DNA from: Actinomycetes bacterium | Lineage (GTDB): Bacteria; Actinomycetota; Acidimicrobiia; Acidimicrobiales; GCA-2861595 | Assembly: GCA_023264975.1 (NCBI GenBank) | Contig: JAHFUS010000030.1 | Coordinates: 1-47,674 of the forward strand | Length of the DNA stretch: 47,674 bases | Direction: 5' to 3' | Part shown: positions 11,237-33,571 of the stretch, piece after piece | Layout of the letters: the number at the start of each line of letters is the position of its first letter | How positions within the stretch are numbered: position 1 is the first letter of the stretch | Made by a program: the position numbers and the translations under genes | The notes under the pieces: model-generated | What the model was told of the DNA's origin: nothing | Databases searched by the model: none | What the model saw: only the letters and a program-made list of their open reading frames with translations

Positions 11237-12616
11237 TCAGGTCGCCTTGCTCACCGAGCTCATGTTGAACCGCCCGACGCGCAGCGGTGGCACCTTGGTG
11301 TTGCGGAACCAGTCGCCGAACTCGCGAGGCAGGGTAGGGACGGTTGCGCCCATCTCCAGCACCTGGGCCAGCATGTCGACCGGGCTCATGTTGAACCGGA
11401 AGTTGTTGACTGCGCCCTTCACCTCGCCGTCCTCCACCAAATACACGCCGTCGCGGGTGAGGCCCGTGAGCAGCAGGCTCTGCTGCTCCACCTCGCGGAT
11501 GTACCAGAAGCACGTGACCAGGAGGGCGGGCCCGGTGGTGGCTGCGATCATGGCTGCCAGGTCAGGCCCGGTGGGTGAGTCGAGGATCAGGTTGCCGACG
11601 TAGGGCCGGGGCTCGGCGCCCGACGTTGCCGCCCAGTGGCGGGTGGACACCAGCGCCGCCAGCGTGCCGTCGCGCACCCACTGGGTGCGCCCGACCGCCA
11701 GCCCGTTGTCGAACACCGATCCGAAGCTGCTCGACGACGAGGTGGCCACGAAGGGCGTGACCTCGATGCCCGGCTCGGCAGGGTCGGAGTAGAGGTTGAC
11801 CGACGGAGCGAACAGCTGCTCGCCGGTACGGTTACCACCGCCGGGCCTGCTGAACACGGTGCGGCCCTCGTCCGCCTCCCGGGCCGAACTCGAGGCGTAC
11901 AGGTAATAGAGCATGTCGGCCACCGCCGACGGCTCCAGCAGCACCTCGTAGTGCCCGGCTGCGAGCTCGACCGGCGTGGCCGCCCAACCGAGCCGTTCGA
12001 CCAGACCGGCGTAGAGAGCGGGGACGTCGATATCGGCCAGCGTCTCGCTCGTCTGCCCGACCCAGGCGGACCGGGTGTAGTCGGGCGACTTGGCATTGAC
12101 CTCGATGCGCCCGTCGAGGTGGGTGTGGCGACGGCGCATCCCCGCCGAAGTGGCCAGCCACGACGTCGACGTGACGTGCTCGGCGTACCCGAACAGCCGC
12201 ACGTCGTCTCCCCCGGCCCGCCGGAACGCTTCGCCCAACGCCGGCGCCAGCGTGGCGAACGCCCCGATGCCGGGCGCTTCCACGGCCTCGTCCCAGTCGG
12301 CCGGGGCGCCGTCGCCGGGTAGCAGGGGCATAGCGTCCTCCGCCTCCGGCCGTCCTTCGCACGCCTCTTCGGAGCGGCGCACGATCGACGCCAGGTTCTC
12401 GGCGGTCGGGTTGGTGATCGCCACCGAGCCGACCCGACCACCGATCACCGACACCACGCTCAAATGGTTGCCGGTGCTCAGGCCGTTGGTCGTCGACGTG
12501 TTGTTGGCCCAGCGCACGTTGGCCCTGGTGGACTCCGAGCCGATGACGATGCAGTCGTCCGCCCGCGACAGGGCCAGCGCCCGCTCGACCACCTCGTGCA
12601 CGGGAAGGGACGTCAC
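11237..12616 (-). CDS. TldE/PmbA-type partner of the TldD metalloprotease
   Basis: A 459-residue protein of the TldD/TldE (PmbA) family. In E. coli the two proteins form a protease that clips peptides such as microcin B17 and CcdA. This member lacks a HExxxH zinc motif, as expected of the TldE half, and keeps the family's C-terminal beta domain (RDGVYLVEDGEVKGAVNNFRF, then NMSPVDML). It overlaps the tldD gene by four bases (12613-12616), so the pair is translationally coupled, in the order tldD-tldE. The start at 12616 is ATG. No peptide precursor gene was seen nearby; a role in peptide modification or general turnover remains open. Confidence 0.85.
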   Translation of the reverse strand: MTSLPVHEVVERALALSRADDCIVIGSESTRANVRWANNTSTTNGLSTGNHLSVVSVIGGRVGSVAITNPTAENLASIVRRSEEACEGRPEAEDAMPLLPGDGAPADWDEAVEAPGIGAFATLAPALGEAFRRAGGDDVRLFGYAEHVTSTSWLATSAGMRRRHTHLDGRIEVNAKSPDYTRSAWVGQTSETLADIDVPALYAGLVERLGWAATPVELAAGHYEVLLEPSAVADMLYYLYASSSAREADEGRTVFSRPGGGNRTGEQLFAPSVNLYSDPAEPGIEVTPFVATSSSSSFGSVFDNGLAVGRTQWVRDGTLAALVSTRHWAATSGAEPRPYVGNLILDSPTGPDLAAMIAATTGPALLVTCFWYIREVEQQSLLLTGLTRDGVYLVEDGEVKGAVNNFRFNMSPVDMLAQVLEMGATVPTLPREFGDWFRNTKVPPLRVGRFNMSSVSKAT

Positions 12617-14112
12617 AGCGAAACTTCGGCGGCCGTGTTGAGCACATTGACCTGACGGAACAGGGCGGCGGGCGCTCCATGGCTCACCGGTGCGGTCTGC
12701 CCGGGCTGGCCCTTGCCGCAGTTGAACGATCCGCCCAGCAGCCAGGTGGACGGCCCGCCCACCGCCTCCATGGAGTTCCAGAACTCGGTGGTCGTTCCCT
12801 GGTAGGCCACGTCCTTGAGCTGGCCGCCGAGCTTGCCGCCCTTGATCTCGTAGAAGCGCTGGGCAGTGAACTGGAAGTTGTACCGCTGCATGTCGATGCT
12901 CCAGCTCTTGTCGCCCACCACGTAGATACCCCGGTCGACGCCGCCGATCAGGTCGTCGACGGTGATGTCGGTGGCCGCCGGTTGAAGCGACACATTGGGC
13001 ATGCGCTGGATCGGGACGGTCGCGGGGGAGTCCGCATAGGCGCAGCCGTTGGAGCGCCCGAAGCCCTGCTTCTGGGCCATCTGCCGATTCAACTGATACC
13101 CGACCAGCACGCCGTCACGGATGAGGTCCCACTGCTGGGCGGCCACGCCCTCGTCGTCCCAGGCGACGGTTGACAGGCCGTGTTCCGTCGAGCGGTCGCC
13201 GGTGACATGCATGACCGGCGAGCCGTACTGGAGCCTGCCGAGGTTGTCGAGGGTGGCAAACGACGTGCCCGCATAGTTGGCCTCGTAGCCGAGGACGCGG
13301 TCGAGCTCGGTGGCGTGGCCGATGGACTCGTGGATCGTGAGCCACAGGTTGGTCGGATGGATCACAAGGTCGTAGCGGCCGGGCTCGACCGACGGCGACG
13401 CCATCTTCTGCTCGAGCAGGTCGGGCACGTCGTCGGCCTCGGCGGCGCAGCTCCTGGTGGCGGTGATGTGCTCCCAGCCCCGCCCCGACGGCAGCGCGCA
13501 CGACCGCATGGTGTCGAAGGCGCCGGTGGCGTCGTCGACCCGGGTGGCGGTGAAGTCGCCGTCCACCCGCACCCGCTGCTGCACGAGGTCGGAGCCGTCG
13601 AGGTCGGCGAAGAACTTGCCCTCGAGCACCTGGCGGACGCTGAAGTCGACGTGCGCCACCTTGCCCGTACGCAGCATGCGCTCGTTCACGGACGTGAGGA
13701 AGGCGACCTTGTCGGTGTCGGGCACCGAGAATGGGTCGATGTCGTAGGACGACACCCACGTGCCCTGGTGCGTCGGCTCGGGCGCCAGCTCCACCGGCTC
13801 GGAGTTCAACGGGGCCAGCGTGGTGGCCACGGTGACGGCAGCCGCGGCCGTGGCGGCGGCCGCATCGGGCGTGAGCTCGACAGCGGAGGCGAAGCCCCAC
13901 GCGCCGCCGTGCACGACCCGCACGGCGTAGCCCACAGTCTCGCTGTCACCGACGCGCTCGAGGGCTCGGTCGCGGACCTTGACGTTCTGGCCGCGCCGCC
14001 GCTCGAACCGGAAGTCGGCATACGTGGCGCCGAGGTCGCGGGCCTTTGTGAGAGCGGCGTCGGCCAGGCGTCGAAAGGGCAGGTCGAGGAACTCCTGATC
14101 GATGTCGGGCAC
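12613..14112 (-). CDS. tldD: TldD-type zinc metalloprotease
   Basis: A 499-residue catalytic half of the TldD/TldE heterodimer. The zinc motif HESIGH is at residues 261-266, and a cysteine ligand probably lies in SFNCGKGQPGQ near the C-terminus. The N-terminal domain (ARDLGATYADFRFERRRGQ) has the family's substrate-cleft fold. The length is normal for the family. Start ATG at 14112; upstream lies a 267-base region toward the divergent glycosyltransferase gene at 14380, which must include its promoter. The enzyme is expected in the cytoplasm. Confidence 0.9.
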   Translation of the reverse strand: MPDIDQEFLDLPFRRLADAALTKARDLGATYADFRFERRRGQNVKVRDRALERVGDSETVGYAVRVVHGGAWGFASAVELTPDAAAATAAAAVTVATTLAPLNSEPVELAPEPTHQGTWVSSYDIDPFSVPDTDKVAFLTSVNERMLRTGKVAHVDFSVRQVLEGKFFADLDGSDLVQQRVRVDGDFTATRVDDATGAFDTMRSCALPSGRGWEHITATRSCAAEADDVPDLLEQKMASPSVEPGRYDLVIHPTNLWLTIHESIGHATELDRVLGYEANYAGTSFATLDNLGRLQYGSPVMHVTGDRSTEHGLSTVAWDDEGVAAQQWDLIRDGVLVGYQLNRQMAQKQGFGRSNGCAYADSPATVPIQRMPNVSLQPAATDITVDDLIGGVDRGIYVVGDKSWSIDMQRYNFQFTAQRFYEIKGGKLGGQLKDVAYQGTTTEFWNSMEAVGGPSTWLLGGSFNCGKGQPGQTAPVSHGAPAALFRQVNVLNTAAEVSL

Positions 14113-15552: not shown

Positions 15553-15762
15553 CAGTGTCTGGCGAGTCGTCGATGGTGACGCGTGCTCGACGCCCAACGC
15601 GTCAGAGCGAATCTCAGGGCGGGCAGCGACCGTGAGGCGGCGCCGGCCCACCGGTACTGCTGCGACGGCCGGTCCCCATCTCGCCGCTCCGGGGCTGACG
15701 CGACAAGATGAAGGCGAGCGCCAGCCCGGATCGGGGCGCAGTCGACGGCGTCTGGAGGGGTT
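15553..15762 (+). terminator. Intergenic gap with terminator-like hairpin (15577-15604)
   Basis: TGACGCGT (15577-15584) and ACGCGTCA (15597-15604) form a perfect 8-bp stem with a 12-base loop, 24 bases after the stop of the glycosyltransferase gene. No T-run follows, as is common for terminators of high-GC genomes. The rest of the gap probably holds a promoter for the dehydrogenase gene; its ribosome-binding site GGAGGGG is at 15754-15760. Confidence 0.4.
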
Positions 15763-16953
15763 GTGGGTTTCACGCGGGACATCGTGGTGGTCGGGGGGTG
15801 CGGGCACGTGGGCCTCCCGCTCGGCCTGACCTTCGCCGAGCGGGGACTGAACGTCGCCCTCTACGACGTGAACGAGGCGGCGGTCGCCACCGTGAACTCC
15901 GGGACGATGCCCTTCGACGAGCCGGGCGCTGAGGAAGTCCTGCGCCGGGTGGTCGGCACGAACTTCGAGGCGAGCACCGACCCATGTGTCGTCCGGTCGG
16001 CCGAGTGCGTGGTGGTCGTCATCGGCACGCCCGTGGACGAGCACCTCAACCCCGATCCACTTGCCGTGCCCTTCGCCGTGGAGGCGCTGGCCGCCCACCT
16101 CGTCGACGGCCAGTTGCTCGTGCTCCGCAGCACCCTCTACCCGGGAGTGACCACACTGGTGGCCGAGGTCATCGAGCGCCTCGGGCTCGACGTCGATGTC
16201 GCGTTCTGCCCTGAGCGCATCGCCGAGGGCAAGGCCATGGTCGAGCTGTACGAGCTGCCGCAAATCGTGTCGGGACGGAGCCCGCAGGCGGTCGAGCGGG
16301 CCGAGAAGCTCTTCCGTAACCTCACCGAGCAGGTCGTGCACCTCGAGCCCGAGGAAGCCGAGCTGGCCAAGCTGTTCACCAACACGTGGCGGTACCTGCG
16401 CTTCGCCATCGCCAACCAGCTGTTCATGATCGCCAACGACTTCGGTGTCGACTACGAGCGCCTGCGCTCGGCCATGGCCTTCGACTACCCCCGGGCGGCC
16501 GACCTGCCCGGCGCCGGCTTCGCCGCCGGGCCGTGCCTGTTCAAGGACACCATGCAGCTGGCCGCTTTCAACAACAACAACTTCGTGCTCGGCCACGCCA
16601 GCATGACGGTGAACGAGGGTCTGCCCCTGTACCTGGTGGCGCGTCTGGAGAAGCAGTACGACCTGAAGTCGCTCACCGTCGGCATCCTCGGCATGGCGTT
16701 CAAGGCGGAGTCGGACGACATCCGGTCGAGCCTCAGCTACAAGTTGAAGCGCATCCTGCGGTTCAAGGCGGGCGCCGTGCTGTGCACCGACCCCTACGTG
16801 ACCGTCGACTCCGGTCTCGTGCCGCTCGACGATGTGCTGGAAATGGCGGACCTCCTCATCGTGGGCGCACCGCATCGCGTGTACGCCGACCTCGAGCTGC
16901 GTCAGCCGGTCGTCGACGTGTGGAACCTGTTCGGCCGAGGCGTCCGCACATGA
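15763..16953 (+). CDS. Nucleotide-sugar 6-dehydrogenase (UDP-glucose / UDP-ManNAc dehydrogenase family)
   Basis: A 396-residue cytoplasmic enzyme that oxidises the C6 hydroxyl of a nucleotide sugar to a uronic acid with two NAD+. Seen: N-terminal NAD fold with GGCGHVGLPLG (11-21), VIGTPVDEH near 87, the central helix with FTNTWRYLRFAIANQL around 205-220, catalytic Cys258 in GFAAGPCLFKD, and a C-terminal domain with ILGMAFKAESDDIR. CPERIAEGKAMVEL (149-162) is closer to UDP-N-acetylmannosamine-type dehydrogenases than to classic UDP-glucose dehydrogenase; the true substrate is not decided by sequence. GTG start with a strong ribosome-binding site. Overlaps the next gene by four bases. Confidence 0.88.
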   Translation: MGFTRDIVVVGGCGHVGLPLGLTFAERGLNVALYDVNEAAVATVNSGTMPFDEPGAEEVLRRVVGTNFEASTDPCVVRSAECVVVVIGTPVDEHLNPDPLAVPFAVEALAAHLVDGQLLVLRSTLYPGVTTLVAEVIERLGLDVDVAFCPERIAEGKAMVELYELPQIVSGRSPQAVERAEKLFRNLTEQVVHLEPEEAELAKLFTNTWRYLRFAIANQLFMIANDFGVDYERLRSAMAFDYPRAADLPGAGFAAGPCLFKDTMQLAAFNNNNFVLGHASMTVNEGLPLYLVARLEKQYDLKSLTVGILGMAFKAESDDIRSSLSYKLKRILRFKAGAVLCTDPYVTVDSGLVPLDDVLEMADLLIVGAPHRVYADLELRQPVVDVWNLFGRGVRT

Positions 16954-22019: not shown

Positions 22020-24821
22020 TCAGCGCTGCAACCGGATGCCGGTAATGTCCTCCCGCCGGTCGGAGCGCAGCCGGAGCTCTGGCCCAGAGTATGCGTACCA
22101 CTGCGGGCAGCTGCCGACCCGCACTCGGTACCGGGTCTCCTGGCGGCCGATCGACCTGAACGTGATCGGGGACTTGCTGCCTGGATGCGACAGGGCGAAG
22201 GTGTCGTCCCTGAGCGGAGCACCGGTGTCGATCACCAGATGGCTGAACCGCTTCAGATCGACGTCGTCGGGCACCCGGATGGACACCTCCTGGCCACCGC
22301 CCGAGCGCGTCAGCGTGAAGGGCAGGGATACGTCCGCCGTCGGCGAGGCGGAGGACGGCCGGTCGGCGAGGAACTCGGGCGCCGTGCCCCAGTCGCAGGG
22401 CCTGCTGTCGGCCAAGAGGTTCTCGGTGCCGATGGGCTGCGTCAGCTTCGGGGCGAGTGTGCCGAGCGGGGGGCTCTCGGCGTCCGAGCGGATGAGGAGC
22501 AGGTAGCTGCGGACCCACACCAGCGGGCGGTACCGGCGCAGGACGTACTCGCCCACCTCATAGTGGCGAACGGTGCCGGGGATGTCGTCCCAGTTGGGAA
22601 GGCCGTACCCACCGTCGAGCACGACCACCTTCGGCCGCACCCGCCGCAGCGCGCCGATCAGGTCGCGCTGGACCTCACGGCGGATCGCCGTGCTGAGGTG
22701 GTAGTAGCGAGTGGCCGGCCGTGTTCCGAGGAGGTAGTGGAACAGCGCCGGAGAGTTCGTCATGTCGAACACCCGGTCCGTCGGGCCGACAACTGCGTCG
22801 AGCACCAGGCTGAGGTCGTTCTGCAGCCCCGCGTCAGTGGCGGTGCCGGTCGTGTAGCCCCAGCGGGGCTGCTCCTCGGGGACGGCGACGTCCCAGCTGT
22901 GGGGGATGCGCTGGTAGGCGTTCCCCAACGGTGCGCCTGGCGTCATCGCGATTACCAGCACGACGAGCACCAGGGTGACGGGGTGTCGCGTGGTCACCCC
23001 GCCGATCCGCGTGCCCCATCGCTGACGGCTCAAGGCCGACTCGGCGGCATCGACCAGCAGGTGGAGCGCGTAATAGAGGAGCGGTAGCGAAGCGGCCAGG
23101 ACATGAAAGACGTGGGCGTCGGCCCGGCTGAGGAACTTGCGGACGTAGAGGAGGACGAAGACGGCAACCGAGGCCATCACCCAGTCGGCAACCGCGACGC
23201 GCCGTCGCGCCGCGAGACGGGCTCCGAAACGCCAAAGGAAGAGCAGGGCCACCGCCGGCGGGGCCACGACGGCGAACCAGAAGTCGAACCCGGTCCCGCT
23301 CAACGGGATGCCGCCGGTCAACACGTGGTCGGGAACGAAGGCACGGAAGTAGAAGAAGAAGCTCCCGAGTGCCCGGTACCGCGCCAGGTACGCGCACCAG
23401 GCGCCAACGGCGATCACCGAGGTGCTCGCGCACCATATGGTCCGCCGGAAGTTGTGCTTCAGGCCTCGCTCGGGCTCGCGATACCACAGCTCGAACGCCA
23501 CCACCGTGCTGCCGGCGGCAAGCACGGCGAACGCCGACTCGGGGGTGATCACGACGTTGGCGAGGCCGAGCAGCACGAAGCCGACTGCCCGCACCCGTGT
23601 CGGCTTGCGCAGCAGGGCCGCCAGCACGAGCAGGAGGTACGGCACGAGGACGAACCGGTTGAGCTCGGGCGTGAGCCAACCTTGCAGGACCAGGCTCGTG
23701 GTGAGTACGAGGAAGAGCCAGTTCCGCCCGAACAGGTACACGTTCAGCAGGTAGAGGCTCACCCAATGGACCGGCCCGAGCAGGGCCGACTGGCCGGCGA
23801 GCGCGCCCCAGATGTCGTTGCGGAACACCCACATGCCCAGCCCACTGTGGGCCACGTCCTCGACCAGACCGTGGACGAAGAGGACGTCCCGCCATGGAAA
23901 TGCGCCGTGGAGGATGAGATCGGCCGCGGCCAGGCTCTCCCCGTCGTGGAAGAAGTCGAGGCCGGCCACCGGCCCGGGCAGCCCGGCGATCAGGAGGAAC
24001 ACGCCGGCCGAGCCGGCGACGAGCACGACGGCCCGACGCTCGATCCGCCTCAGCTCGTCGTCTGATCGGGCCCGTACGATCGCCCTCAGAGTGAACCCGA
24101 GGAGAGCCATGCCCGCACCGGCCGCGAGCCAGAGCGGCATCCACGGATGGTGGCGGACGCTGCCGTCGGCGACCACACTCACCCTGGCGCTCGCCGAGAC
24201 CCAGTACAGCAGCAGAAACGTGAACCGGACGGATACGGCGTTGGCGACTGCCCGCCGCCCGCCGGCCGTGCCCACCGGCGATGGAATGAGCCGGGCAGCC
24301 GAGCCGAGAAAGATGACGACGGTGTACCCGGTGGCGCAGGCGACGACGACGAGCCAGAACCACCGCGACACCTGCAGGATGAACGCCACTTCGAGCCCGA
24401 TCACCGCTCCGACGAAAAGCGATCGGCCGAGGCCCGCCCTGGTGGACGCTTCGCCCGGCACAGCCTCGGCCGTCGACAGCTGGCAGACCTCCCGAATTCC
24501 TCCGGAGCGGGGACCCGACGCCGGGCGCCATCCCAATGCGACACAAGCGGCCAGCGTGAGCAGCGGGAAGAGGACGACCACGACGTCGTAGGTCCTGAAG
24601 TAGCCGTAGACGTCGAAGTTCCTATGGATGGGGTACCCGACGACATCGGTACGCACATGGAGGCCCTCCGGCAGGGACGACCGCACGACGAGCGAGACCA
24701 GCGCCGCGACGCCCGCTGCGACGCCGAGCCTGACCGGCCGCAACCTCCGCCCCACCGGGTGCGAAGGCGATGGCGCTTCCTGCTCCGGCGCCGGCGTGCG
24801 ACCGTTCGTCGCCACTTTCAC
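22020..24821 (-). CDS. Large multi-spanning membrane protein, GT-C-like
   Basis: A 933-residue protein with roughly 15 hydrophobic spans up to residue 660 and a C-terminal outer region of about 270 residues with a beta-rich end. The loop GLDFFHDGESLAAADLILHG, with acidic residues after a membrane span, resembles the catalytic first loop of GT-C transferases, but it lies about 300 residues in, so the N-terminal third may be a separate membrane module. I cannot name a family. It is the last gene of the ten-gene heptose run and begins 25 bases after the methyltransferase gene. It could add a sugar (perhaps heptose) outside the membrane; that is a guess from context. Confidence 0.6.
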   Translation of the reverse strand: MKVATNGRTPAPEQEAPSPSHPVGRRLRPVRLGVAAGVAALVSLVVRSSLPEGLHVRTDVVGYPIHRNFDVYGYFRTYDVVVVLFPLLTLAACVALGWRPASGPRSGGIREVCQLSTAEAVPGEASTRAGLGRSLFVGAVIGLEVAFILQVSRWFWLVVVACATGYTVVIFLGSAARLIPSPVGTAGGRRAVANAVSVRFTFLLLYWVSASARVSVVADGSVRHHPWMPLWLAAGAGMALLGFTLRAIVRARSDDELRRIERRAVVLVAGSAGVFLLIAGLPGPVAGLDFFHDGESLAAADLILHGAFPWRDVLFVHGLVEDVAHSGLGMWVFRNDIWGALAGQSALLGPVHWVSLYLLNVYLFGRNWLFLVLTTSLVLQGWLTPELNRFVLVPYLLLVLAALLRKPTRVRAVGFVLLGLANVVITPESAFAVLAAGSTVVAFELWYREPERGLKHNFRRTIWCASTSVIAVGAWCAYLARYRALGSFFFYFRAFVPDHVLTGGIPLSGTGFDFWFAVVAPPAVALLFLWRFGARLAARRRVAVADWVMASVAVFVLLYVRKFLSRADAHVFHVLAASLPLLYYALHLLVDAAESALSRQRWGTRIGGVTTRHPVTLVLVVLVIAMTPGAPLGNAYQRIPHSWDVAVPEEQPRWGYTTGTATDAGLQNDLSLVLDAVVGPTDRVFDMTNSPALFHYLLGTRPATRYYHLSTAIRREVQRDLIGALRRVRPKVVVLDGGYGLPNWDDIPGTVRHYEVGEYVLRRYRPLVWVRSYLLLIRSDAESPPLGTLAPKLTQPIGTENLLADSRPCDWGTAPEFLADRPSSASPTADVSLPFTLTRSGGGQEVSIRVPDDVDLKRFSHLVIDTGAPLRDDTFALSHPGSKSPITFRSIGRQETRYRVRVGSCPQWYAYSGPELRLRSDRREDITGIRLQR

Positions 24822-24846: not shown

Positions 24847-25608
24847 TCATTCGGATGGCACGCGAGCGAGCGCCACCATCTGCCAACCCCAGGGTGACGA
24901 GTGCAGGTTGGCGCGGAAGAGAGTCCCGAAGACGGCCATGGCCGCCAGGGCCGTCGGCGACGCCGGCAACCCGTCGCCGGCCTTCACGTCGTCGACGAGC
25001 TTCTTGCCTCGCAGGATCACCGCCAGCCGGTAGAGGTTGAAGAACGGGAACCCGGCCCCGGTAACCGAGTCCACCTGGAGCCCGACGCCCGTGAGGAGGT
25101 CCCGAAGGTCCTCCCGCCGGTAATGCCGGCGGTGGCCGATGTGGAGGTCGAAGGCCGATCTCGGACCGCCCGGCACCGTGACCAGAAGTCGGCAGCCGGG
25201 GGCGAGGTAGCGGAGGGCGTTGGCCAGCAGCACGTCCGGTCGCTCGACGTGCTCGAGCACCTCCGAGCACACCGCATCGGTGGCCCAGCCCCGTAGCTCG
25301 GGAGCCGGGGCGCCCGCATCCAGAAGGTCGCATTGGACGAACGAGGCAGCTGGCACCTTGGCGCGTGCGACCTCGATGCCCTCGCGGCTCAACTCGAGGC
25401 CGATGACGTCGGCGTTCGGGTGGCGCAGCTTCACGTCGGCCACGAGGTCGCCCTGGCCGCTGCCGATGTCCAGCACGCGGGCGGGTGCGTCGCCGAGGCC
25501 GAGAAGGCGGAGGACGAGCCGGCGGCGATAGGCCTCAGCTGGGTTGGTCCCCGCCGATTCGGCGTAGGAGTGCCAGTGACGGTCCCAGTCGTCCTGTGGA
25601 ATCGGCAC
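24847..25608 (-). CDS. SAM-dependent methyltransferase
   Basis: A 253-residue class I methyltransferase. The SAM motif VLDIGSGQGDL is at residues 45-55, the acidic ribose-binding residue in VIGLELS follows, and DAVCSEVLEHVERPDVLL is the usual post-motif region of glycan and quinone methyltransferases. It most likely methylates a sugar of the exported glycan. I place the start at GTG 25608, 14 bases after the transaldolase stop; the frame stays open far upstream, but that part overlaps the transaldolase gene and does not look like protein. The ribosome-binding site is weak, so the start is uncertain by several codons. Confidence 0.8.
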   Translation of the reverse strand: MPIPQDDWDRHWHSYAESAGTNPAEAYRRRLVLRLLGLGDAPARVLDIGSGQGDLVADVKLRHPNADVIGLELSREGIEVARAKVPAASFVQCDLLDAGAPAPELRGWATDAVCSEVLEHVERPDVLLANALRYLAPGCRLLVTVPGGPRSAFDLHIGHRRHYRREDLRDLLTGVGLQVDSVTGAGFPFFNLYRLAVILRGKKLVDDVKAGDGLPASPTALAAMAVFGTLFRANLHSSPWGWQMVALARVPSE

Positions 25609-25622
25609 GGGCGACTGATCGC

Positions 25623-26339
25623 TCAGATCGAGTATCCAGCCGCGCAGGCGTCGTTGAAGAACATCCTGACGGTGTCGAGCGAGAACTGTTCGAGGTCGTA
25701 CCCGAGCACCGGGAGCTTCTTGAGCAGGTCGTGGGTGACGGTGATCACGTCGCACCCGATCTGGTCGGCCTGCACGACGTTGAGGATCTCGCGGGGGCTG
25801 GCCCATATAAGTTCGATGTGCGGGTACGGGGCGAGACATTCCAGCGCCCGCTCCATGATCGGTACCGGGTCGCGGCCGGTGTCGGCGATCCGGCCGGCGA
25901 AGACGGAAACGAAGCACGCCGGCCCGCCTGCCAGGCACGGGACCATATCCTCGACCTGGGCGTTGGTCATCATGGCGGTGACGTTGGTCTTGACGCCGAG
26001 GTCGGCCAGGCGCCGCACGAGCGGCCCCGACGTGATCCCCTGGCAGTCCGTGACCGGAATCTTGACGTTGACGTTGTCACCCCATGCCGCGATCTTGAGC
26101 GCCTGACGCTCCATCTCGTCGAAGTTGTCCGAGAAGACCTCGAACGAGATGGGCAGGTCGGGGACCGACAGGAGGATGTCGCGGGCGAACGCCTCGTAGT
26201 CCCGCAGGCCGGCAGCGTTCATGAGGGTGGGATTGGTCGTGAAGCCCGTGATGAATGGGGAGGCGGCCAGCGCGACGATGCCCGCCCGGTCGGCCCCGTC
26301 GGCGAAGATCTTTACCCGGAGGTCCTCGAGCCGGGTCAC
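25623..26339 (-). CDS. Transaldolase / fructose-6-phosphate-aldolase-family enzyme
   Basis: A 238-residue class I aldolase-type TIM barrel of the small transaldolase group (TalC/FSA size). Conserved blocks: KIFADGAD with Asp14, TGFTTNPTLM at about 31-40, and NVNVKIPVT, where Lys93 would form the Schiff base. Transaldolase makes sedoheptulose 7-phosphate from fructose 6-phosphate and erythrose 4-phosphate. Sedoheptulose 7-phosphate is the substrate of the GmhA-like isomerase encoded two genes upstream, so a role in feeding heptose synthesis is attractive but unproven. GTG at 26339 overlaps the gmhB-like stop by four bases (GTGA). Confidence 0.8.
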   Translation of the reverse strand: MTRLEDLRVKIFADGADRAGIVALAASPFITGFTTNPTLMNAAGLRDYEAFARDILLSVPDLPISFEVFSDNFDEMERQALKIAAWGDNVNVKIPVTDCQGITSGPLVRRLADLGVKTNVTAMMTNAQVEDMVPCLAGGPACFVSVFAGRIADTGRDPVPIMERALECLAPYPHIELIWASPREILNVVQADQIGCDVITVTHDLLKKLPVLGYDLEQFSLDTVRMFFNDACAAGYSI

Positions 26340-26884
26340 GTGGCCGCCCCGGCCCGGCAATGGGCGAGGATCCACGGGACAGCGTCGGCCAGGTTGGCGA
26401 CGGTGAGATCCTGCTCGTCAGGGCGGCGCTCGTCGTAGCCGTTGTCCACCCATATCGTGGCGCAGCCGGCCTCGTGCCCAGCCCGCACGTCGCTCCATCG
26501 GTCGCCGACCATGACGCTCTCGTTCAGCGCGATCGACCACCGCTGGGCCGCTTCCACCAAGAGGCCGGGGGCCGGCTTGCGACAGCCGCACGCGTCGGCA
26601 TCGTCGTGGAAGCAGACGACGAGCTCATCGACCGGAACCCTAGCGCAGAGGGCGTCGTTGATGGCCTCTATGGACGAGCGGGTGGTGCTTCCCCGGGCGA
26701 CGTCGGGCTGGTTGGTGACCACTATCACCGCCAAGCCGGCGCGGCGGAACTGGGCGCACGCGTCCACCACGCCGGGAAGGATCTCCAGCTCGCCGACACT
26801 GGCCGGCGGGAACGGGTGCCCGTCGACCACGGCGGCCCTGTTGACGACCCCGTCCCTGTCGAGGAACACGCCCGGGCGGGCCAC
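26336..26884 (-). CDS. gmhB: D-glycero-D-manno-heptose 1,7-bisphosphate 7-phosphatase (GmhB-like)
   Basis: A 182-residue HAD-family phosphatase. GVFLDRDGVVN holds nucleophile D9 and acid D11; VVTNQPDVARG gives motif II with T57; the zinc loop C91-x-H93 and C99-x-C101 (CFHDDADACGCRKPAPGLL) is the mark of GmhB and histidinol phosphatase; VGDRWSDVRAG is motif III/IV. In the GDP-heptose route it removes the C7 phosphate after the kinase step. The length agrees with GmhB. GTG start at 26884, 5 bases after the epimerase stop. The presence of kinase, isomerase and guanylyltransferase genes in the same run makes the heptose role much more likely than histidine synthesis. Confidence 0.88.
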   Translation of the reverse strand: MARPGVFLDRDGVVNRAAVVDGHPFPPASVGELEILPGVVDACAQFRRAGLAVIVVTNQPDVARGSTTRSSIEAINDALCARVPVDELVVCFHDDADACGCRKPAPGLLVEAAQRWSIALNESVMVGDRWSDVRAGHEAGCATIWVDNGYDERRPDEQDLTVANLADAVPWILAHCRAGAAT

Positions 26885-26889
26885 GACGG

Positions 26890-27879
26890 CTACAGCAGTC
26901 CCAGACGGGCGTCGCCCACCATGCTCAGCATCGCCGCCCGCATCGCCTCCCGGGAGGTGTGCTTGCAAACCCACCCCAGAGACCGAATCCTTTCGGTGGC
27001 GATGCGCACGATGGGCACGTCGCCCTTCCATCCGCGGTCGCCTCCGGTGAACCGGTAGACGACCGATGCGGGATCCAGGCCGACGCATTCCACCGCCAAG
27101 TCGGCGATCTCCTTCACAGTGACGTAGTCGCCGGTGGCCACGTTGAAGGGCTGGAAGATGCGGCCCTCCCATTCGTTGGCGAGAAGCACGGCGCTCACCA
27201 CGTCGCTGACGTGGACGTACGACTTGCTCTGGCTGCCATCGCCGAGGATCGGAAGGGTGCTGGGGTTGTCGAGCAGGCGGCGCACGAAATCGAAGCCCAC
27301 GCCGTGCGTCTGGCGGGGGCCGACCACATTCCCGAACCGGAATACCCGCCCCGACAGGCCGAACATGTGGGCATATGCGGCGATCATGGCCTCGCCCGCG
27401 AGCTTGCTGGCCCCATAGGTGGAGACCGCCTCGAGGGGCCCCCGGTCCTCGTGCGCCTCGACCTCCCCGAGGTCGCCGTACACGCCGCTACCCGAGGCGT
27501 ACAGGATCCGCTCGGTACCGGTGTGTCGCATCGCCTCGACAACGTGGTGGGTCAGCAGCGTGCCCTCGTCGAAGTCGACGGCGGGCTCGGTGGCGGCCCG
27601 TGCGATGTCGGGATTCGACGCCAGGTGGATGACGACCTGGTGGCCGGCCATCGCGGCGGTCAGCTCTTTGAGATCGTGTACGTCCGCCCTCACAACTGAC
27701 AGCCGCGGGTCGGCGGCGTGTTGATCGAAATGCCAATCCCGGCCGGACGAGAAGTTGTCGAACAGCGTAACGCGGTCGACGCCGTCGCTAGCGAGGAGCC
27801 GGTCCGTGAAATGGCTGCCGATGAAGCCGGCGCCACCAACCAGGAAGTAGCGGCTGGCGTTCAGCGGACCGACTCCCAT
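26890..27879 (-). CDS. NAD-dependent sugar epimerase/dehydratase (extended SDR)
   Basis: A 329-residue enzyme with GGAGFIGSHFTDRLL (NAD motif), YASGSGVYGD (active-site Ser) and YGASKLAGEAMIAAYA (Tyr-x3-Lys). FGNVVGPRQTHGVGFDFV and LPILGDGSQSKSYVHVSDVV are typical of UDP-glucose 4-epimerase-like proteins. Within a GDP-heptose operon it might act on GDP-heptose as an epimerase or dehydratase, giving a modified heptose, or on a UDP-sugar; sequence alone does not decide. ATG 27879 overlaps the end of the SIS-isomerase gene by 19 bases. The frame is open upstream of this start but reads as the shadow of the SIS gene. Confidence 0.85.
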   Translation of the reverse strand: MGVGPLNASRYFLVGGAGFIGSHFTDRLLASDGVDRVTLFDNFSSGRDWHFDQHAADPRLSVVRADVHDLKELTAAMAGHQVVIHLASNPDIARAATEPAVDFDEGTLLTHHVVEAMRHTGTERILYASGSGVYGDLGEVEAHEDRGPLEAVSTYGASKLAGEAMIAAYAHMFGLSGRVFRFGNVVGPRQTHGVGFDFVRRLLDNPSTLPILGDGSQSKSYVHVSDVVSAVLLANEWEGRIFQPFNVATGDYVTVKEIADLAVECVGLDPASVVYRFTGGDRGWKGDVPIVRIATERIRSLGWVCKHTSREAMRAAMLSMVGDARLGLL

Positions 27880-28460
27880 TTGGTGGACTGCAGCTGGAGA
27901 GCGGGGTGGCTCACGAGGAGGTGCCACACCACTGCACACAGACCCTCGGTGTGCGGGGTGATCCGGTCGGAGTGCAGGGGCGGGATGACCACGCACGCGT
28001 TGGCCGTCCGGGCCGTGAAGCCGCCGTCCCGGCCCACGACCCCGAAGACGCGGGCGCCGACCTCGACGGCGAGCTCGACCGCCCGCACCAAATTCACGGA
28101 GACGTTCTTCTCCCGGTCCCCGCCGCCCACCGAGAACACCAGCACAGCATCATCGGGACCCAGCCGGGAGCCCTTCAACCACTCCGAGAAGCTCGTGTCC
28201 CAGCCTTCGTCGTTGACCCGCGCCGTGAGCTCCGAGACGTTGTCGGTCGGGGCGTAGGCCTCGAACTGGCAGATCTTCCGGAAGTCGTTGACGGCATGGC
28301 CGGCATGGCCGGCGGAGCCTCCTACACCGAGGATGAACAGCCGTCCGCCCGCGTCGCGGATGGCCGCAAGCCCTTCTGCGAGCCGCTCGATCTCGTCGTG
28401 GTCGAGCCTCTCCACGATTGAGACGGTCTCGTCGAGGAACGTGCGGGTGAAGGTATGCAT
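27861..28460 (-). CDS. SIS-domain sugar isomerase, GmhA-like
   Basis: A 199-residue protein with one SIS domain. LFILGVGGSAGHAGHAVNDF (41-60) is the phosphosugar-binding loop and matches sedoheptulose-7-phosphate isomerases, which have SAGHAxHxxxD; VFSVGGGDREKNVSVNLVRA is the second phosphate-binding segment. GmhA converts sedoheptulose 7-phosphate to D-glycero-D-manno-heptose 7-phosphate, the first committed step of heptose synthesis. SGGGxxxNV-type residues are conserved, though this is a diverged member, so I leave the gene symbol open. ATG 28460 has GAGG a few bases upstream and lies 11 bases after the methyltransferase stop. Confidence 0.85.
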   Translation of the reverse strand: MHTFTRTFLDETVSIVERLDHDEIERLAEGLAAIRDAGGRLFILGVGGSAGHAGHAVNDFRKICQFEAYAPTDNVSELTARVNDEGWDTSFSEWLKGSRLGPDDAVLVFSVGGGDREKNVSVNLVRAVELAVEVGARVFGVVGRDGGFTARTANACVVIPPLHSDRITPHTEGLCAVVWHLLVSHPALQLQSTKWESVR

Positions 28461-28471
28461 GGGTTCTCGCC

Positions 28472-29098
28472 TCACTCGGCTCGGCAGACGGCGAAGGTGT
28501 TCAGGCCGAGCTTGTGCCTGAAGCACCGGATGTTGTGGGGCACGAATCCGGCCCGCACGAGCAGGGGCCACAGGTCCGAAGGGTCGAAGTACGTCTTGTG
28601 GTCGTCCATCTCCTCGACCGGGCTGAGCCCGAGCCGGAAGGCGGAGAACTCGAGGGCCCGCTTACCCAGCCACGACGGGACGTTGACCAGGCACACGCCG
28701 CCCTGCGCCACGATGCGGCGGCATTCTGCCAGCAGTACCGCCGGCTCCCAGAGGTGCTCGAGGACCGACAGGCAGGTCACGACGTCAAGGGAGCTGTCGG
28801 CGACGGCATCGAGTGCGGCGGGGAGGGCTCCTTCGATGGCGGTGACGTTGGGGTGGTTCTTCAGGTCTTCGGACAAGGCCACATCCACGAGGACCGCATG
28901 GCCGATCGTGTCGAGCTCCCCGCGGAGCCAGGAGGCGTGGAACCCACAGCCGAAGTCGCCGACGCGTAGCCCGTCGAGGCGGGGGACGGCGCGCCGGATC
29001 GACCGGCCAGACAGCCACACGCCGACCTTGTCGACGACGGATGGCTCGTCTTCCTGGCCGAATGCCCGCTCCCGGGTCGGCGGTTCAGCGGCTGCCAT
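28472..29098 (-). CDS. SAM-dependent methyltransferase
   Basis: A 208-residue class I methyltransferase with the SAM motif VGDFGCGFHASWL at residues 46-58 and DVVTCLSVLEHLWEPAVLLAE as the central block. It belongs to the broad group often found in glycan clusters. The ATG at 29098 lies inside the end of the membrane GT2 gene (14-base overlap), so translation is coupled. The C-terminal half (HKTYFDPSDLWPLLVRAGFV) resembles methyltransferases that act on lipid- or sugar-linked substrates. Substrate not known. Confidence 0.82.
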   Translation of the reverse strand: MAAAEPPTRERAFGQEDEPSVVDKVGVWLSGRSIRRAVPRLDGLRVGDFGCGFHASWLRGELDTIGHAVLVDVALSEDLKNHPNVTAIEGALPAALDAVADSSLDVVTCLSVLEHLWEPAVLLAECRRIVAQGGVCLVNVPSWLGKRALEFSAFRLGLSPVEEMDDHKTYFDPSDLWPLLVRAGFVPHNIRCFRHKLGLNTFAVCRAE

Positions 29099-30332
29099 GT
29101 CGGTGCCCGTGGAGCGCGGCTGCGTGCAGCACGAGGGTGAAGGTGAAGGTGGTGAAGCTGGCGATGGTGAGGAGCAGGCCGGTGACGGCGAGGTGATTCC
29201 GCACCCCGATGTCGGTCGGGAGGGTGAGCCCGGACTGCACGTACGTGAGGACGAGGGGCGCGATGAGGCCGAGGCCGACGAGGAAGGTGATGGCGCTGGC
29301 GATGACCGTGCGCGTATACGAGAAGAAGCCCAGCCAACGCTCCCTGGCCCGGCCTGAATAGTCGTAGAACAGCTGGGCCAGGCAGCCGAAGAAGAAGCTC
29401 TGCAGGCCGAGGATCGACAGCGCCAGGCCGACCAGCATGCTGAACAGCGAGAACGTCACCGGACCGACGGTGACCGGACCGAGGCTGAGCGGCACGGTCA
29501 GGAGCAGCCCGACGGCGAGGAGGGCCAGGCCCGGCTTGAAGGCGAAGAAGTCCGCGCCGTAGACGAACATGGCGCGCAGGTTGATCCACGCCGCCTGGAA
29601 CGGCGAGAACCATCCCGCCCGTTTGTGATGGCTGAGGCGTCCGTCCCGGTCCTTCAGGAAGCTCACCGGCACCTCGGCCGTGCGAAGGCCCATGTGCACC
29701 GACTTCAGCACCATCTCCGATGCGTACTCCCACGACTGGGAGCGGATCTCCATGCGCTCGAGCCCGTCTCGCGTGATGCCGCGCATGCCGCAATGGATGT
29801 CGGAGAACCGGCACGAGTACAGCCGGTTGAGGATCCAGGTGGTGAGGGGTGTGCCGAAGTAGCGGTGCAGCGCCGGCATCGAGCCCGGCTCGATCGACCC
29901 GCGAAAGCGCGAGCCCATCACGAACTCGAACCCTTCACGAAACATGTCGACGAACGGACGCAGCTGGCGGAAATCGTAGGTGCAGTCGCAGTCGCCCATC
30001 ACCACGTACTTGCCGCGGATGTAGGGGAGGGCGTCGATGTAGGCGCGTCCCAACCCCCGCCTCGGGGTGGTCAGGACGCGCGCACCCCGCGCAAGTGCTA
30101 TCTCGGCGGTACGGTCCGTCGAGCTGTCGATGATGAGGATCTCACCGACGATGCCCGCCTCGGCAAGTCCTCGCTTGCACCAGTCGAGGAAGTCACCGAT
30201 CGTGATCTCCTCGTTCAGCGCAGGGATGACGATCGACAGCTCGGGGTCGCTCACGTCGTCGACCGGCAGGCTGAGACGAGTGTCCATGTCGAGGGTGATC
30301 GCCATCGAGTTCTCCGAGGTCGGGGCCGTCAT
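29085..30332 (-). CDS. Membrane-anchored GT2 glycosyltransferase (polyprenyl-phosphate sugar synthase type)
   Basis: A 415-residue protein: cytoplasmic GT-A domain (32-250) with LSIVIPALNEEITIGDFLDW, LIIDSSTDRT and the metal-binding DCD at 114-116, then four membrane spans at about 266-284, 292-312, 341-363 and 380-403. This build is that of DPM/GtrB-like enzymes that move a sugar to polyprenyl phosphate for use outside the membrane. ATG at 30332 has a weak ribosome-binding site (GGCAGGT); an in-frame ATG at 30305 is the alternative. The frame is open up to 30416 but reads as non-protein. The gene overlaps the next by 14 bases. Confidence 0.85.
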   Translation of the reverse strand: MTAPTSENSMAITLDMDTRLSLPVDDVSDPELSIVIPALNEEITIGDFLDWCKRGLAEAGIVGEILIIDSSTDRTAEIALARGARVLTTPRRGLGRAYIDALPYIRGKYVVMGDCDCTYDFRQLRPFVDMFREGFEFVMGSRFRGSIEPGSMPALHRYFGTPLTTWILNRLYSCRFSDIHCGMRGITRDGLERMEIRSQSWEYASEMVLKSVHMGLRTAEVPVSFLKDRDGRLSHHKRAGWFSPFQAAWINLRAMFVYGADFFAFKPGLALLAVGLLLTVPLSLGPVTVGPVTFSLFSMLVGLALSILGLQSFFFGCLAQLFYDYSGRARERWLGFFSYTRTVIASAITFLVGLGLIAPLVLTYVQSGLTLPTDIGVRNHLAVTGLLLTIASFTTFTFTLVLHAAALHGHRHGSR

Positions 30333-30378: not shown

Positions 30379-31098
30379 CTACTGCCGCGGTCCGGACAAA
30401 TGAATCTCGAGGTCACGGAGACCGGAAGGCGAGCCGACCTCGAAGAAGCGCTCCTTCACCTCGTGGCCGCCCAGCAGCCCCTCCACGCTCAATTGATGAA
30501 AGATTTCGGCTAGGTCGGCGGTACGGTCCCGAGGCACGCGCTCGGCCACGACGTCCCTGCGCAGCACGGAGAGGCCGTAGTCCACGAAGTCGAGGCCGCT
30601 TCCCGCAGGATCAGGGTGCGACTTCTGGTAGAGCAGCACCCGCTCGTCCCGGTAGCGGACGTTGCTGTTCTCCCACCGGCCCTCGTTCCGGAACACCGTC
30701 ATGAGGGCAGGGCAACCCGATCGCTCGAAGGCGGAGATCACCGGCGCCAAGTCGACGGGAAGGTACGAGTCGCCGTAGAGCACGATGAAGGTGGGCGGCA
30801 GCGTTCCTTGGTCGAGGGCCAGCCGCAGGGCGCCGGCCGTGCCGCGCAGGTGCGGTCCCTCGTCGGCATAGGTCACCGACAGGCCCCAGTCCCCACCGTC
30901 GCCGACGTAGCTGCGGACGGCCTGACCGAGGTGGCCGATGCACATCGTGACCGATGTCACATGTTGGCCCGCCAGCCACGACAGCTGATGGTGGAGGAAG
31001 GGTCGGCCGCCCACCGGGACCAACGCCTTGGGCAGCGGACCGGTGATCGTCTGCATCCGGGTGCCGAGGCCGCCGGCGAGGATCATGCAGGGAATCAC
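30379..31098 (-). CDS. hddC: Heptose-1-phosphate guanylyltransferase-like nucleotidyltransferase (HddC-like)
   Basis: A 239-residue nucleotidyltransferase with MILAGGLGTRMQTITGPLPK at the N-terminus (nucleotide loop and metal-side Arg/Lys) and LPPTFIVLYGDSYLPVDL as the Asp metal motif. This short class includes HddC, which joins GTP and D-glycero-alpha-D-manno-heptose 1-phosphate to GDP-heptose, and also glucose- and mannose-1-phosphate enzymes. The neighbouring hddA-like kinase makes HddC the best reading. GTG at 31098 is 40 bases downstream of the kinase stop; an ATG at 31086 is in frame. The gene product would be cytoplasmic. Confidence 0.8.
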   Translation of the reverse strand: MIPCMILAGGLGTRMQTITGPLPKALVPVGGRPFLHHQLSWLAGQHVTSVTMCIGHLGQAVRSYVGDGGDWGLSVTYADEGPHLRGTAGALRLALDQGTLPPTFIVLYGDSYLPVDLAPVISAFERSGCPALMTVFRNEGRWENSNVRYRDERVLLYQKSHPDPAGSGLDFVDYGLSVLRRDVVAERVPRDRTADLAEIFHQLSVEGLLGGHEVKERFFEVGSPSGLRDLEIHLSGPRQ

Positions 31099-31138: not shown

Positions 31139-32122
31139 TCACGCCCCGCGGGCCGTCACCGTCGACCCGTCGTGGTCGAACGCGAATCGGAGTTCCGTGA
31201 GCCCCGCCGAGGTCATGGCGTCGCGGAGACGGGCCCTGTCGGTGGCGTAGAAGAGGAGGAACCCTCCCGCGCCCGCTCCGACCAGCTTGCCGCCGAGGGC
31301 ACCGTTCTCCATCCCCAGGTCGTACCACCGGTTGATCTCGGTCGAGCTGATCCCCTGCGACCGCTCCTTCTTGTGAAGCCAGTGCTCGTGCATGAGGGTG
31401 GCGAAGCGGGCTGTGTCGCCTGCCTCGAGGGCCTCTTTGGTGGCCGCCCCCAGCTTCTTCACCATGTGCAGGCTTTCGAACATGCGCTCGTCCCCGGCTT
31501 CCGAGCGTTGCTGCTGATCGCGAAGCACCTCGGAGGACTGCCGCGAGTAGCCCGTGAAGAACATCACGAGGTGCTCCTCGAGGTCGTGCAGCGTCTCGTT
31601 GGAGATCGCCAGAGGTGACACCTGGACCCGTCCGCTGTGGCCGAACTCGAAGCAGGTGAGGCCACCGAAGGCGGCGATGTACTGGTCCTGCTTGCCCACA
31701 GGCTGCCCGAGCAGGTCGATCTCGATGTGGCAGGCCTCTTCGGCCAGCGCTCCGGCTGTCACATGCTCTCGCTTGAACGCGTACAGGGCTCGCAAGAGCC
31801 CGACGGTGAAGGTGCCAGAGGATCCGAGGCCGGTCCCAGCGGGAATGTCGGCGAGGCTCACCAGCTCCAGGGCAGGACCGACCGGATGAAGGCGCATGGC
31901 CTCACGCACGATGGGGTGGGCGATGTCGTCGATCTCCTGGACCCGTTCCAAGGCCGAGTACTTGATGAAGTAGTCGTCGGTGAACGTGCGGTTGATGCCG
32001 ATGTAGACGTACTTATCTATAGCGGCGGAGATGACCGAGCCGCCATGGCGCCGGTAGTATGAAGGAAGGTCGGTACCCCCGCCACCAAGGGTGATTCGCA
32101 GGGGGGTCCGCGTGATGATCAC
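31139..32122 (-). CDS. hddA: D-glycero-alpha-D-manno-heptose 7-phosphate kinase (HddA-like GHMP kinase)
   Basis: A 327-residue GHMP kinase. MIITRTPLRITLGGGGTDLP at the start and LADIPAGTGLGSSGTFTVGL (91-110; ATP loop PAGTGLGSSG at 94-103) are the family motifs; KLVGAGAGGFLLFY near the C-terminus is the third motif. The first block is that of HddA, which phosphorylates C1 of heptose 7-phosphate; fucose and N-acetylgalactosamine kinases are the less likely options. It is the first gene of the ten-gene run. GTG at 32122 follows GAGG a few bases upstream, and a good -10 element lies in the leader region (32182-32187 on this strand). Confidence 0.88.
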   Translation of the reverse strand: MIITRTPLRITLGGGGTDLPSYYRRHGGSVISAAIDKYVYIGINRTFTDDYFIKYSALERVQEIDDIAHPIVREAMRLHPVGPALELVSLADIPAGTGLGSSGTFTVGLLRALYAFKREHVTAGALAEEACHIEIDLLGQPVGKQDQYIAAFGGLTCFEFGHSGRVQVSPLAISNETLHDLEEHLVMFFTGYSRQSSEVLRDQQQRSEAGDERMFESLHMVKKLGAATKEALEAGDTARFATLMHEHWLHKKERSQGISSTEINRWYDLGMENGALGGKLVGAGAGGFLLFYATDRARLRDAMTSAGLTELRFAFDHDGSTVTARGA

Positions 32123-32236: not shown

Positions 32237-33571
32237 ATGGTTGCAGTCGAGGCCGATTCCGAGAGCTGTCTCTTCGATGCCGAGTGGTATCTCCACCAGT
32301 ACCCCGACGTCGCCGCCGCCGGAGTCGATCCGTTCGCCCACTACATGCGAGGCGGGTGGCAGGAGGGCCGCCGTCCCCACCCCCTGTTCGACCCCGGCTG
32401 GTATCTGGCCAGTGCCCCCCACATTGCCGAGCAGGGCCTCAACCCCCTCGCCCACTTTCTCGATGTCGGATGGAGGGACGGTTTGTCCCCGCACCCCCTT
32501 TTCGACACCGAGTGGTACCTGCACTCCAACGCCGACGTGGCGGCGAGCGGCGTCAACCCGCTCCTGCACTTCCTCGACACCGGATGGCGAGAGGCCCGTG
32601 ACCCTGTGCTGCTCTTCGACGTGGAGTGGTACCTGGCAGACAACCCTGACGTGGCCCAGTCAGGAGAGAATCCGCTGATCCACTACGTCGAAACCGGCTG
32701 GAGGTTGTCGCGGAACCCCCACCTCTTGTTTGACACCGCCTGGTACCTCGAGCGCTACAAAGACGTCGCCAAGCTCGGCATAGACCCCTGCGCCCATTTC
32801 GTGGTCCATGGTGCGCGAGAAGGCCGGAGACCCCACCCGCTGCTCCACCCCTCCTGGTATGTCCTCCATGCGCCCGAGATCGGCGATACGGATGCGCTCT
32901 CCCATTTCCTCACCGCCGGGTGGAAGGAAGGCCTCGCTCCGACCCCGCTATTCGACACGGCCTGGTACCTCCGGACCAATCCCGACGTGGCCGAGGCCGG
33001 GGTCAACCCGCTGCTGCACTACCTCCGCACCGGCGGGCGTCAGGGCCGCAACCCGCATCCGTTGTTCGACGCCGGGTGGTACCTGGCCCACAACCCGGAT
33101 GTTGCGGGATCGGGCGTCGACCCGCTGGTGCACTACGTCACGGTCGGGTGGCACCAGGGACGCAACCCGACTCCGCTCTTCGACACCGATTGGTACCTCG
33201 GTACGTACCGAGACGTGGCCGACAACAGCATCGATCCATTGACGCACTACGTTGCCCACGGCTGCCGCGAGGAGCGTGACCCCCACCCCCTCTTTGACTC
33301 CGCCTGGTACGTGCGCCGGCACTATGACGTGCCCCGGGGGCATATGTACCCGCTCGTCCATTTCGTCTCGTGGGGGCGCTTCCGAGGCTACGACCCGGGC
33401 CCGCTGTTCGACACGCAGTGGTACGTGGGCCGGCATCCTGAAGCCGTCGAGCACCCCGGCGGGCCCATATGTCACTTCCTCGAGGTCGGGCTCCCGGGCG
33501 GCGCAGCGCCATCCCGAGTCGCACTCGAGATGCGGAGCCGTCGTTCGTTGCAGGAGGACCAGACGGCGTGA
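32237..33571 (+). CDS. Protein made of eleven 38-residue FDxxWYL repeats
   Basis: A 444-residue protein that is almost wholly tandem repeats. The consensus starts LFDxxWYLxxNPDVA and ends NPLLHYLxxGWREGRNPHP; ten units are 38 residues long or nearly so (114 bases), the sixth is 36, and the last two are degenerate. There is no signal peptide or membrane span. Similar repeats are known to me as N-terminal parts of large glycosyltransferases; here they stand alone, and the GTGA overlap with the following GT4-GT2 gene suggests the two act together, perhaps as scaffold or glycan-binding partner. The exact function is unknown. ATG at 32237 has no visible ribosome-binding site, so a leaderless transcript is possible. 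Confidence 0.85.
   Translation: MVAVEADSESCLFDAEWYLHQYPDVAAAGVDPFAHYMRGGWQEGRRPHPLFDPGWYLASAPHIAEQGLNPLAHFLDVGWRDGLSPHPLFDTEWYLHSNADVAASGVNPLLHFLDTGWREARDPVLLFDVEWYLADNPDVAQSGENPLIHYVETGWRLSRNPHLLFDTAWYLERYKDVAKLGIDPCAHFVVHGAREGRRPHPLLHPSWYVLHAPEIGDTDALSHFLTAGWKEGLAPTPLFDTAWYLRTNPDVAEAGVNPLLHYLRTGGRQGRNPHPLFDAGWYLAHNPDVAGSGVDPLVHYVTVGWHQGRNPTPLFDTDWYLGTYRDVADNSIDPLTHYVAHGCREERDPHPLFDSAWYVRRHYDVPRGHMYPLVHFVSWGRFRGYDPGPLFDTQWYVGRHPEAVEHPGGPICHFLEVGLPGGAAPSRVALEMRSRRSLQEDQTA

Follow-up and report, generated by a model that had tools for sequence, protein, structure and literature searches.

Two described pathways employ the set of enzyme families found at the locus analysed here. The GDP-heptose pathway (GmhA, HddA, GmhB, HddC) begins at sedoheptulose 7-phosphate (S7P); in GmhA, three serines and one threonine presumably bind the substrate phosphate (PMC5387315). 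The octose pathway, which in the literature examined is part of lincosamide antibiotic production, uses LmbR to build an octulose, with ribose 5-phosphate as one substrate and fructose 6-phosphate or S7P as the other (PMC5854111). LmbN is the octulose 8-phosphate isomerase, LmbP the kinase, LmbK the phosphatase, LmbO the guanylyltransferase, LmbM the epimerase, LmbL a dehydrogenase, LmbZ an oxidoreductase and LmbS an aminotransferase (PMC4351081, PMC12945683). Both this pathway and the transaldolase family TIGR02134 are already known. The gene studied here belongs to that family, and its operon holds the enzyme families of the octose pathway from the transaldolase through the epimerase: TAL, SIS, GHMP, HAD, NTP and EPI, corresponding to LmbR-N-P-K-O-M.

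The transaldolase gene and its operon

The window (the whole stretch of 47,674 nucleotides that was analysed) carries the following genes of the operon, with two further possible members downstream:

25623..26339, minus strand: transaldolase (TAL), TIGR02134 family, 238 aa, Schiff-base lysine K93
26336..26890, minus strand: HAD-IIIA phosphatase (HAD), gmhB/LmbK-like, start codon approximate
26890..27879, minus strand: NAD-dependent epimerase (EPI), LmbM-like, start at ATG 27879 or GTG 27873
27861..28460, minus strand: SIS isomerase (SIS), gmhA/LmbN-like, with a lengthened phosphate loop
28472..29098, minus strand: methyltransferase, by family match
29085..30314, minus strand: GT2 glycosyltransferase, AglJ-like, below cut-off
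30379..31098, minus strand: sugar-phosphate nucleotidyltransferase (NTP), HddC/LmbO-like
31139..32122, minus strand: GHMP sugar kinase (GHMP), HddA/LmbP-like
24847..25626, minus strand: downstream methyltransferase, start codon unsettled, possible operon member
22020..24821, minus strand: 933-aa protein, possible operon member

The transaldolase frame runs for 238 codons from GTG at 26339 to TGA at 25623 on the minus strand; the plus strand of this interval is not the gene. Four bases, GTGA, belong both to its start and to the stop of the gmhB-like gene upstream, which bears out the four-base overlap described, with no strand given, in the initial annotation. The frame of the downstream methyltransferase opens near the transaldolase stop, and the 933-aa protein beyond it had no Pfam or NCBIfam match. 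On the other side, the divergent neighbour of the operon (32237-33571, plus strand) encodes a protein whose translation, inspected by eye, shows some ten repeats of the form WYLxxNPDVAxxGxNPLxHYxxxGWxEGRxPHPLFD.

The family assignment made in the initial annotation stands: the protein scores 316.3 bits against TIGR02134 (curated cut-off 281.95, E 1.3e-94; NCBIfam) and matches PF00923 with an E value of 6.7e-35 (Pfam), while against the fructose-6-phosphate aldolase (FSA) model TIGR00875 it reaches 85.7 bits, far under the cut-off of 245.95 (NCBIfam). A profile of 24 relatives aligns K93, E67 and F147 of the window protein with Lys86, Glu60 and Phe132 of the Thermoplasma transaldolase, so that the Schiff-base lysine is in place, and the full catalytic set (D14, N36, E67, K93, N119, T121, S145, F147, R150) is common to the window protein and all 18 other cassette-labelled rows compared, the 19 including three loci (L140, L153, L158) with no SIS gene nearby. 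We take Glu/Phe as against Gln/Tyr at the E67 and F147 positions to separate transaldolases from FSA; E. coli FsaA, with Gln and Tyr at both sites in our alignment, accords with this rule. The predicted structure (pLDDT 89.6) has the T. maritima transaldolase 1vpx as its top fold match (E 9e-17), and the PDB titles among the fold matches include Lys86Ala, E60Q/F132Y and the reverse FSA variants Q59E and Y131F. By residues and fold, the gene is predicted to encode a true transaldolase. The initial annotation had also allowed for a change into an aldolase for another sugar; an FSA-type aldolase is rejected on the E67/F147 pair, with no Gln/Tyr.

The window genome has one further PF00923 gene, whose size and score (251.5 bits) are those of the TalAB type. 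Among the genomes of cassette loci that were checked (45 of 80 loci, many of them drafts), 37 have two or more PF00923 genes and eight have one, so that the operon copy is usually not the sole transaldolase. The presence of a second transaldolase elsewhere in the genome, together with the recurrence of the neighbourhood set out below, favours the proposal, made at the outset, that a glycan operon has its own dedicated enzyme for precursor supply.

Recurrence of the neighbourhood

TIGR02134 genes above the cut-off are rare: in the window's phylum they occur in 3 of 396 genomes, and samples of three other phyla give 6 of 398, 13 of 247 and 8 of 251. We compared two sets of loci. The ranked set comprises the best 80 loci of a genome-wide scan less L071, a duplicate of L070, leaving 79; these best-ranked loci span 19 named phyla and two records with no phylum name. 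The unranked set comprises 21 loci, namely the 27 over-cut-off matches in the three samples minus six whose genomes were already ranked (G432, G411, G396, G401, G428, G430). The models for the neighbouring genes were trained on the ranked loci and the window, without the 21 unranked loci, and distances were counted as 1.5 kb on each side of the gene, for the TalC controls as well.

Within this distance, 67/79 ranked and 17/21 unranked loci have a gmhA-like SIS gene, compared with none of 26 TalC loci and neither of the two other TIGR02134 loci of the window's phylum (G372, G380). The HAD gene lies equally close at 56/79 ranked and 11/21 unranked loci, and SIS, GHMP and NTP occur together anywhere in the locus at 46/79 and 9/21; several of the loci lacking SIS are truncated at contig ends (L049, L068, L140). 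The commonest gene order is EPI-UGD-SDR-GFO-GHMP-NTP-SIS-HAD-TAL, and the four-base overlap of HAD and TAL seen in the window also occurs in nine ranked loci. The neighbourhood pointed out in the initial annotation is thus present in many other genomes, and its recurrence, set against the 26 controls, rules out a one-off or chance arrangement.

Variants of the cassette were also encountered. In six ranked loci (L043, L053, L076, L080, L102 and L112; cluster 16) the cassette reads SIS-HAD-TAL-EPI-EPI, with GFO and UGD coming next in most, and an HldE-like fusion with swapped domains (nucleotidyltransferase first), far under the HldE cut-offs, replaces GHMP and NTP. Among 25 Yersinia genomes, sought as a source of HddA comparators, just two carry the cassette-type kinase (L096, L245), and both loci hold the cassette. 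Within the window's phylum, one genome (G333, locus L163) carries an intermediate cassette, GHMP-SIS-HAD-TAL, whose transaldolase is sister to the LmbR types (95/85) and whose SIS loop segment has 17 residues.

Heptose and octose enzymes compared

The initial annotation placed the gene in a heptose operon. The operon is borne out, and the heptose label is an interpretation that is probably wrong: none of the neighbours in the window reaches the NCBIfam heptose equivalog cut-offs, with scores of 45.6 against 320 bits for GmhA, 181.3 against 600 for HddA, 117.8 against 178 for GmhB and 55.6 against 300 for HddC, the HddA comparison being weak because Bacteroidia HddAs miss the same cut-off too. 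As heptose comparators we used 20 Bacteroidia loci whose HddA scores lie at 387-465 bits, together with GmhA and GmhB of E. coli and others. A TIGR02134-type gene was found at none of the 20 HddA loci; at four of them (L222, L224, L238, L239) a TalC-type transaldolase is encoded on the strand opposite to the HddA kinase, at a distance of about 1 to 5 kb.

One difference is in the phosphate loop of the SIS isomerase. Counted between fixed points, this segment is 14 residues long in the window and in 87 of 88 cassette rows (12 in the remaining row), and in the cassette isomerases it reads like SVGGGNLEKNIS; the LmbN types have 14-17 residues (5/5). All heptose GmhAs compared have a short segment of 8 residues (11 of 11 from HddA clusters plus that of E. 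coli, 12/12), as do 3/3 other Bacteroidia and 4/4 other Streptomyces SIS rows, and two aligned GmhA structures likewise show a gap at the loop. The GmhA segment, STSGNS, holds Ser and Thr residues that are, as we read that paper, the phosphate-site residues of PMC5387315; the window isomerase does not have this short type. Of all the sequence features compared, the loop is the strongest single pointer, and it suggests a substrate other than S7P.

The lmb genes were sought with the cassette SIS alignment, which gave nine matches among 392 Streptomyces-type genomes. One Streptomyces-type chromosome carries HAD-UGD-EPI-SIS-GFO-GHMP-NTP-aminotransferase-TAL, the order lmbK-L-M-N-Z-P-O-S-R, in which the aminotransferase that separates NTP from TAL is of the DegT type. 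The SIS frame there is extended at its N terminus, and genes for a glycosyltransferase and PmbA/TldD are also present; partly from the gene order, we take this chromosome to be that of S. lincolnensis. Another locus, L176, is probably a second lincosamide cluster. Three Streptomyces-type loci (L177, L178, L179) carry a lincosamide-like set, TAL-NTP-GHMP-GFO-SIS-EPI-UGD-HAD, that branches separately from the lincomycin one, and may be undescribed clusters. PmbA/TldD genes are found in lincosamide clusters (L174:1255-2763); in the window, two adjacent long frames (11237-14112, minus strand) resemble by eye a TldD/PmbA pair, which here is probably housekeeping.

Careful trees of HAD, SIS and NTP were made with a subset of 15 cassette rows. 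In the HAD tree the LmbK-type rows (L174, L176) nest within the cassette rows (96/95, 97/95), LmbK and its L176 counterpart adjoining L154, from the Acidobacteriota sample (97/95); placing the lmb and heptose types on one side is rejected (AU p 0.001 and 0.002), and so is the cassette standing alone (AU p for all HAD alternatives 0.001, 0.002 and 0.004). The NTP tree puts cassette and lmb together (100/99) and likewise rejects lmb with the heptose types (AU p 0.02 and 0.001). The SIS tree leans the same way at 86/83, with lmb plus GmhA not rejected (AU p 0.19 and 0.08). In quick trees, the LmbL types fall within the cassette UGDs, and the window type of EPI stands beside the LmbM types (support 94); the window EPI is 40% identical to LmbM and 27-30% identical to two epimerase-family proteins of E. 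coli, with local scores of 559 versus 153 and 128.

The kinase and the transaldolase itself are less one-sided. GHMP kinase trees do not decide between LmbP and HddA, the GFO tree gives no decision either, and the cassette GHMP model scores HddA (215-244) above the LmbP types (135-207). The transaldolase tree sets the cassette, the LmbR types and the intermediate G333 against TalC and FsaA (100/99.8), at a point where long branches meet. In pairwise score the window protein is further from LmbR (180) than from a TalC control (223). The LmbR types have Q and L at the sites of E67 and F147, and LmbR scores higher against TIGR00875 than against TIGR02134.

The product of the pathway and its known relatives

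We somewhat favor the reading that the window gene encodes a true transaldolase dedicated to NDP-octose synthesis in a surface-glycan locus. Computation supplies the family, the active-site residues, the operon, its recurrence, the loop also seen in LmbN, and the ancestry that several steps share with the lincomycin octose pathway. Which acceptor is used, what the product, its nucleotide and its stereochemistry are, and that the sugar goes into a glycan, we infer as follows. Fructose 6-phosphate (or S7P) would donate a dihydroxyacetone unit, which the transaldolase would hold as a Schiff base on Lys93 and pass to ribose 5-phosphate, giving octulose 8-phosphate, which the SIS isomerase would convert to octose 8-phosphate. 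The GHMP kinase would then place a phosphate on C1, the HAD enzyme would remove the 8-phosphate, and the nucleotidyltransferase would form the NDP-octose (GDP by analogy with LmbO). The epimerase would invert one centre, C4 by analogy with LmbM, which we take to act there, and the glycosyltransferase and methyltransferases would use the octose.

The main rival, to which we give a smaller though still substantial share, is that fructose 6-phosphate and erythrose 4-phosphate are the substrates from which the transaldolase forms S7P, and that the operon leads to an NDP-heptose, so that S7P would feed the GmhA-like step as the initial annotation supposed. The catalytic residues of the window protein are indeed those of ordinary transaldolases, and the absence of transketolase from small cassette genomes, which would exclude erythrose 4-phosphate, was not found: PF00456 is present in all 14 cassette genomes tested. 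The LmbR active-site difference tells against an octose here; it would fit a change of acceptor that turned a heptose cassette into an octose one in the lincosamide line, and the lincosamide enzymes could have arisen in this way. It is this option, together with the kinase as near to HddA as to LmbP, the HldE-like variant (an enzyme of the heptose world) in six ranked loci and the TalC genes near 4 of 20 HddA clusters, that keeps a heptose product a possible, if less probable, outcome. Against it, housekeeping enzymes already make S7P and a second transaldolase is present in most of the genomes checked, the HddA loci have no TIGR02134-type gene, the isomerase loop is like that of LmbN and unlike that of every GmhA examined, and the HAD and NTP clades side with LmbK and LmbO. 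These last two points, the loop and the grouping of HAD and NTP, make S7P as the precursor doubtful and make the other suggestion of the initial annotation, a different sugar, the likelier of its two ideas, by way of a longer acceptor and not by new aldolase chemistry.

A transaldolase or aldolase for yet another sugar, with another donor or acceptor (arabinose 5-phosphate, for example) and a product that is neither S7P nor D-altro-octulose 8-phosphate, seems improbable to us: the changed isomerase loop and the failure of every neighbour to match an equivalog would suit it, and sequence does not reveal acceptor specificity, but residues of the FSA type are absent and the octose pathway covers the same facts with known chemistry. 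Least probable is a housekeeping pentose-phosphate transaldolase merely located in a glycan operon, for although eight of the 45 cassette genomes have no other PF00923 gene and TIGR02134 genes lie without cassette neighbours in two other genomes of the phylum, the neighbourhood recurs in ranked and unranked loci and not in controls, and the window genome has its second transaldolase.

Beyond the window, we see about an even chance that a cassette for an NDP-octose (TAL-HAD-SIS-NTP-GHMP, as a rule together with EPI, Gfo/Idh, SDR and a UGD-like dehydrogenase), old and spread by horizontal transfer, is found in surface-glycan loci across at least 19 named phyla. Linear octoses would in that case form a regular class of bacterial surface sugar, and the lincomycin sugar pathway, because LmbK nests inside the cassette, a late offshoot. 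Rare octoses on bacterial surfaces may be commoner than thought. If the cassette makes an NDP-octose, a widespread group of surface polysaccharides contains eight-carbon sugars that sugar analysis may miss or take for heptose, automatic annotation wrongly assigns these genes to heptose synthesis, and it becomes possible to test where the lincomycin sugar pathway came from. If it makes a heptose, it offers a clear example of a glycan operon with a precursor enzyme locked into it. Among open-licence papers, a restriction that makes the search a weak one, we found no report of this cassette and no linear octose pathway outside the lincosamides. A paper on C-4-branched octoses reportedly concerns different chemistry (PMC4753412). 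The available part of a study that counted general transaldolase/transketolase co-localisation does not mention the cassette (PMC5702140).

Compared with known systems, the window transaldolase has the fold and Schiff-base lysine of TalC/FsaA, the fructose-6-phosphate aldolase family, but differs from FsaA in its diagnostic residues, and the TalC controls have none of the cassette neighbours. The TIGR02134 (transald_staph) transaldolases of G372 and G380 are closer, with 43-47% identity and identical catalytic residues, yet they too lack cassette genes nearby. With the GDP-D-glycero-alpha-D-manno-heptose pathway the operon shares the logic of isomerase, C1 kinase, phosphatase and nucleotidyltransferase and a kinase about equally near to HddA and LmbP; it differs in that GmhA has the short loop, that HAD and NTP fall in other clades, and that 20 of 20 HddA loci are without a TIGR02134-type transaldolase. 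From the lincosamide octose pathway it differs in its setting in a glycan locus, in its E67/F147 where LmbR has Gln/Leu, and in its gene content: neither an LmbS-like aminotransferase nor lincosamide-specific genes were seen among the operon genes scanned, and the window has no Gfo/Idh match and no LmbL-type gene, its UGD (15712-16953) scoring like E. coli Ugd. The two are alike in that each step, from the transaldolase through to the epimerase, falls to the same enzyme family, in that the lincosamide HAD, NTP and UGD each share a clade with their cassette counterparts, and in the isomerase loop. On these sequence comparisons, the window operon resembles the lincomycin octose pathway more than it does the ordinary heptose pathways.
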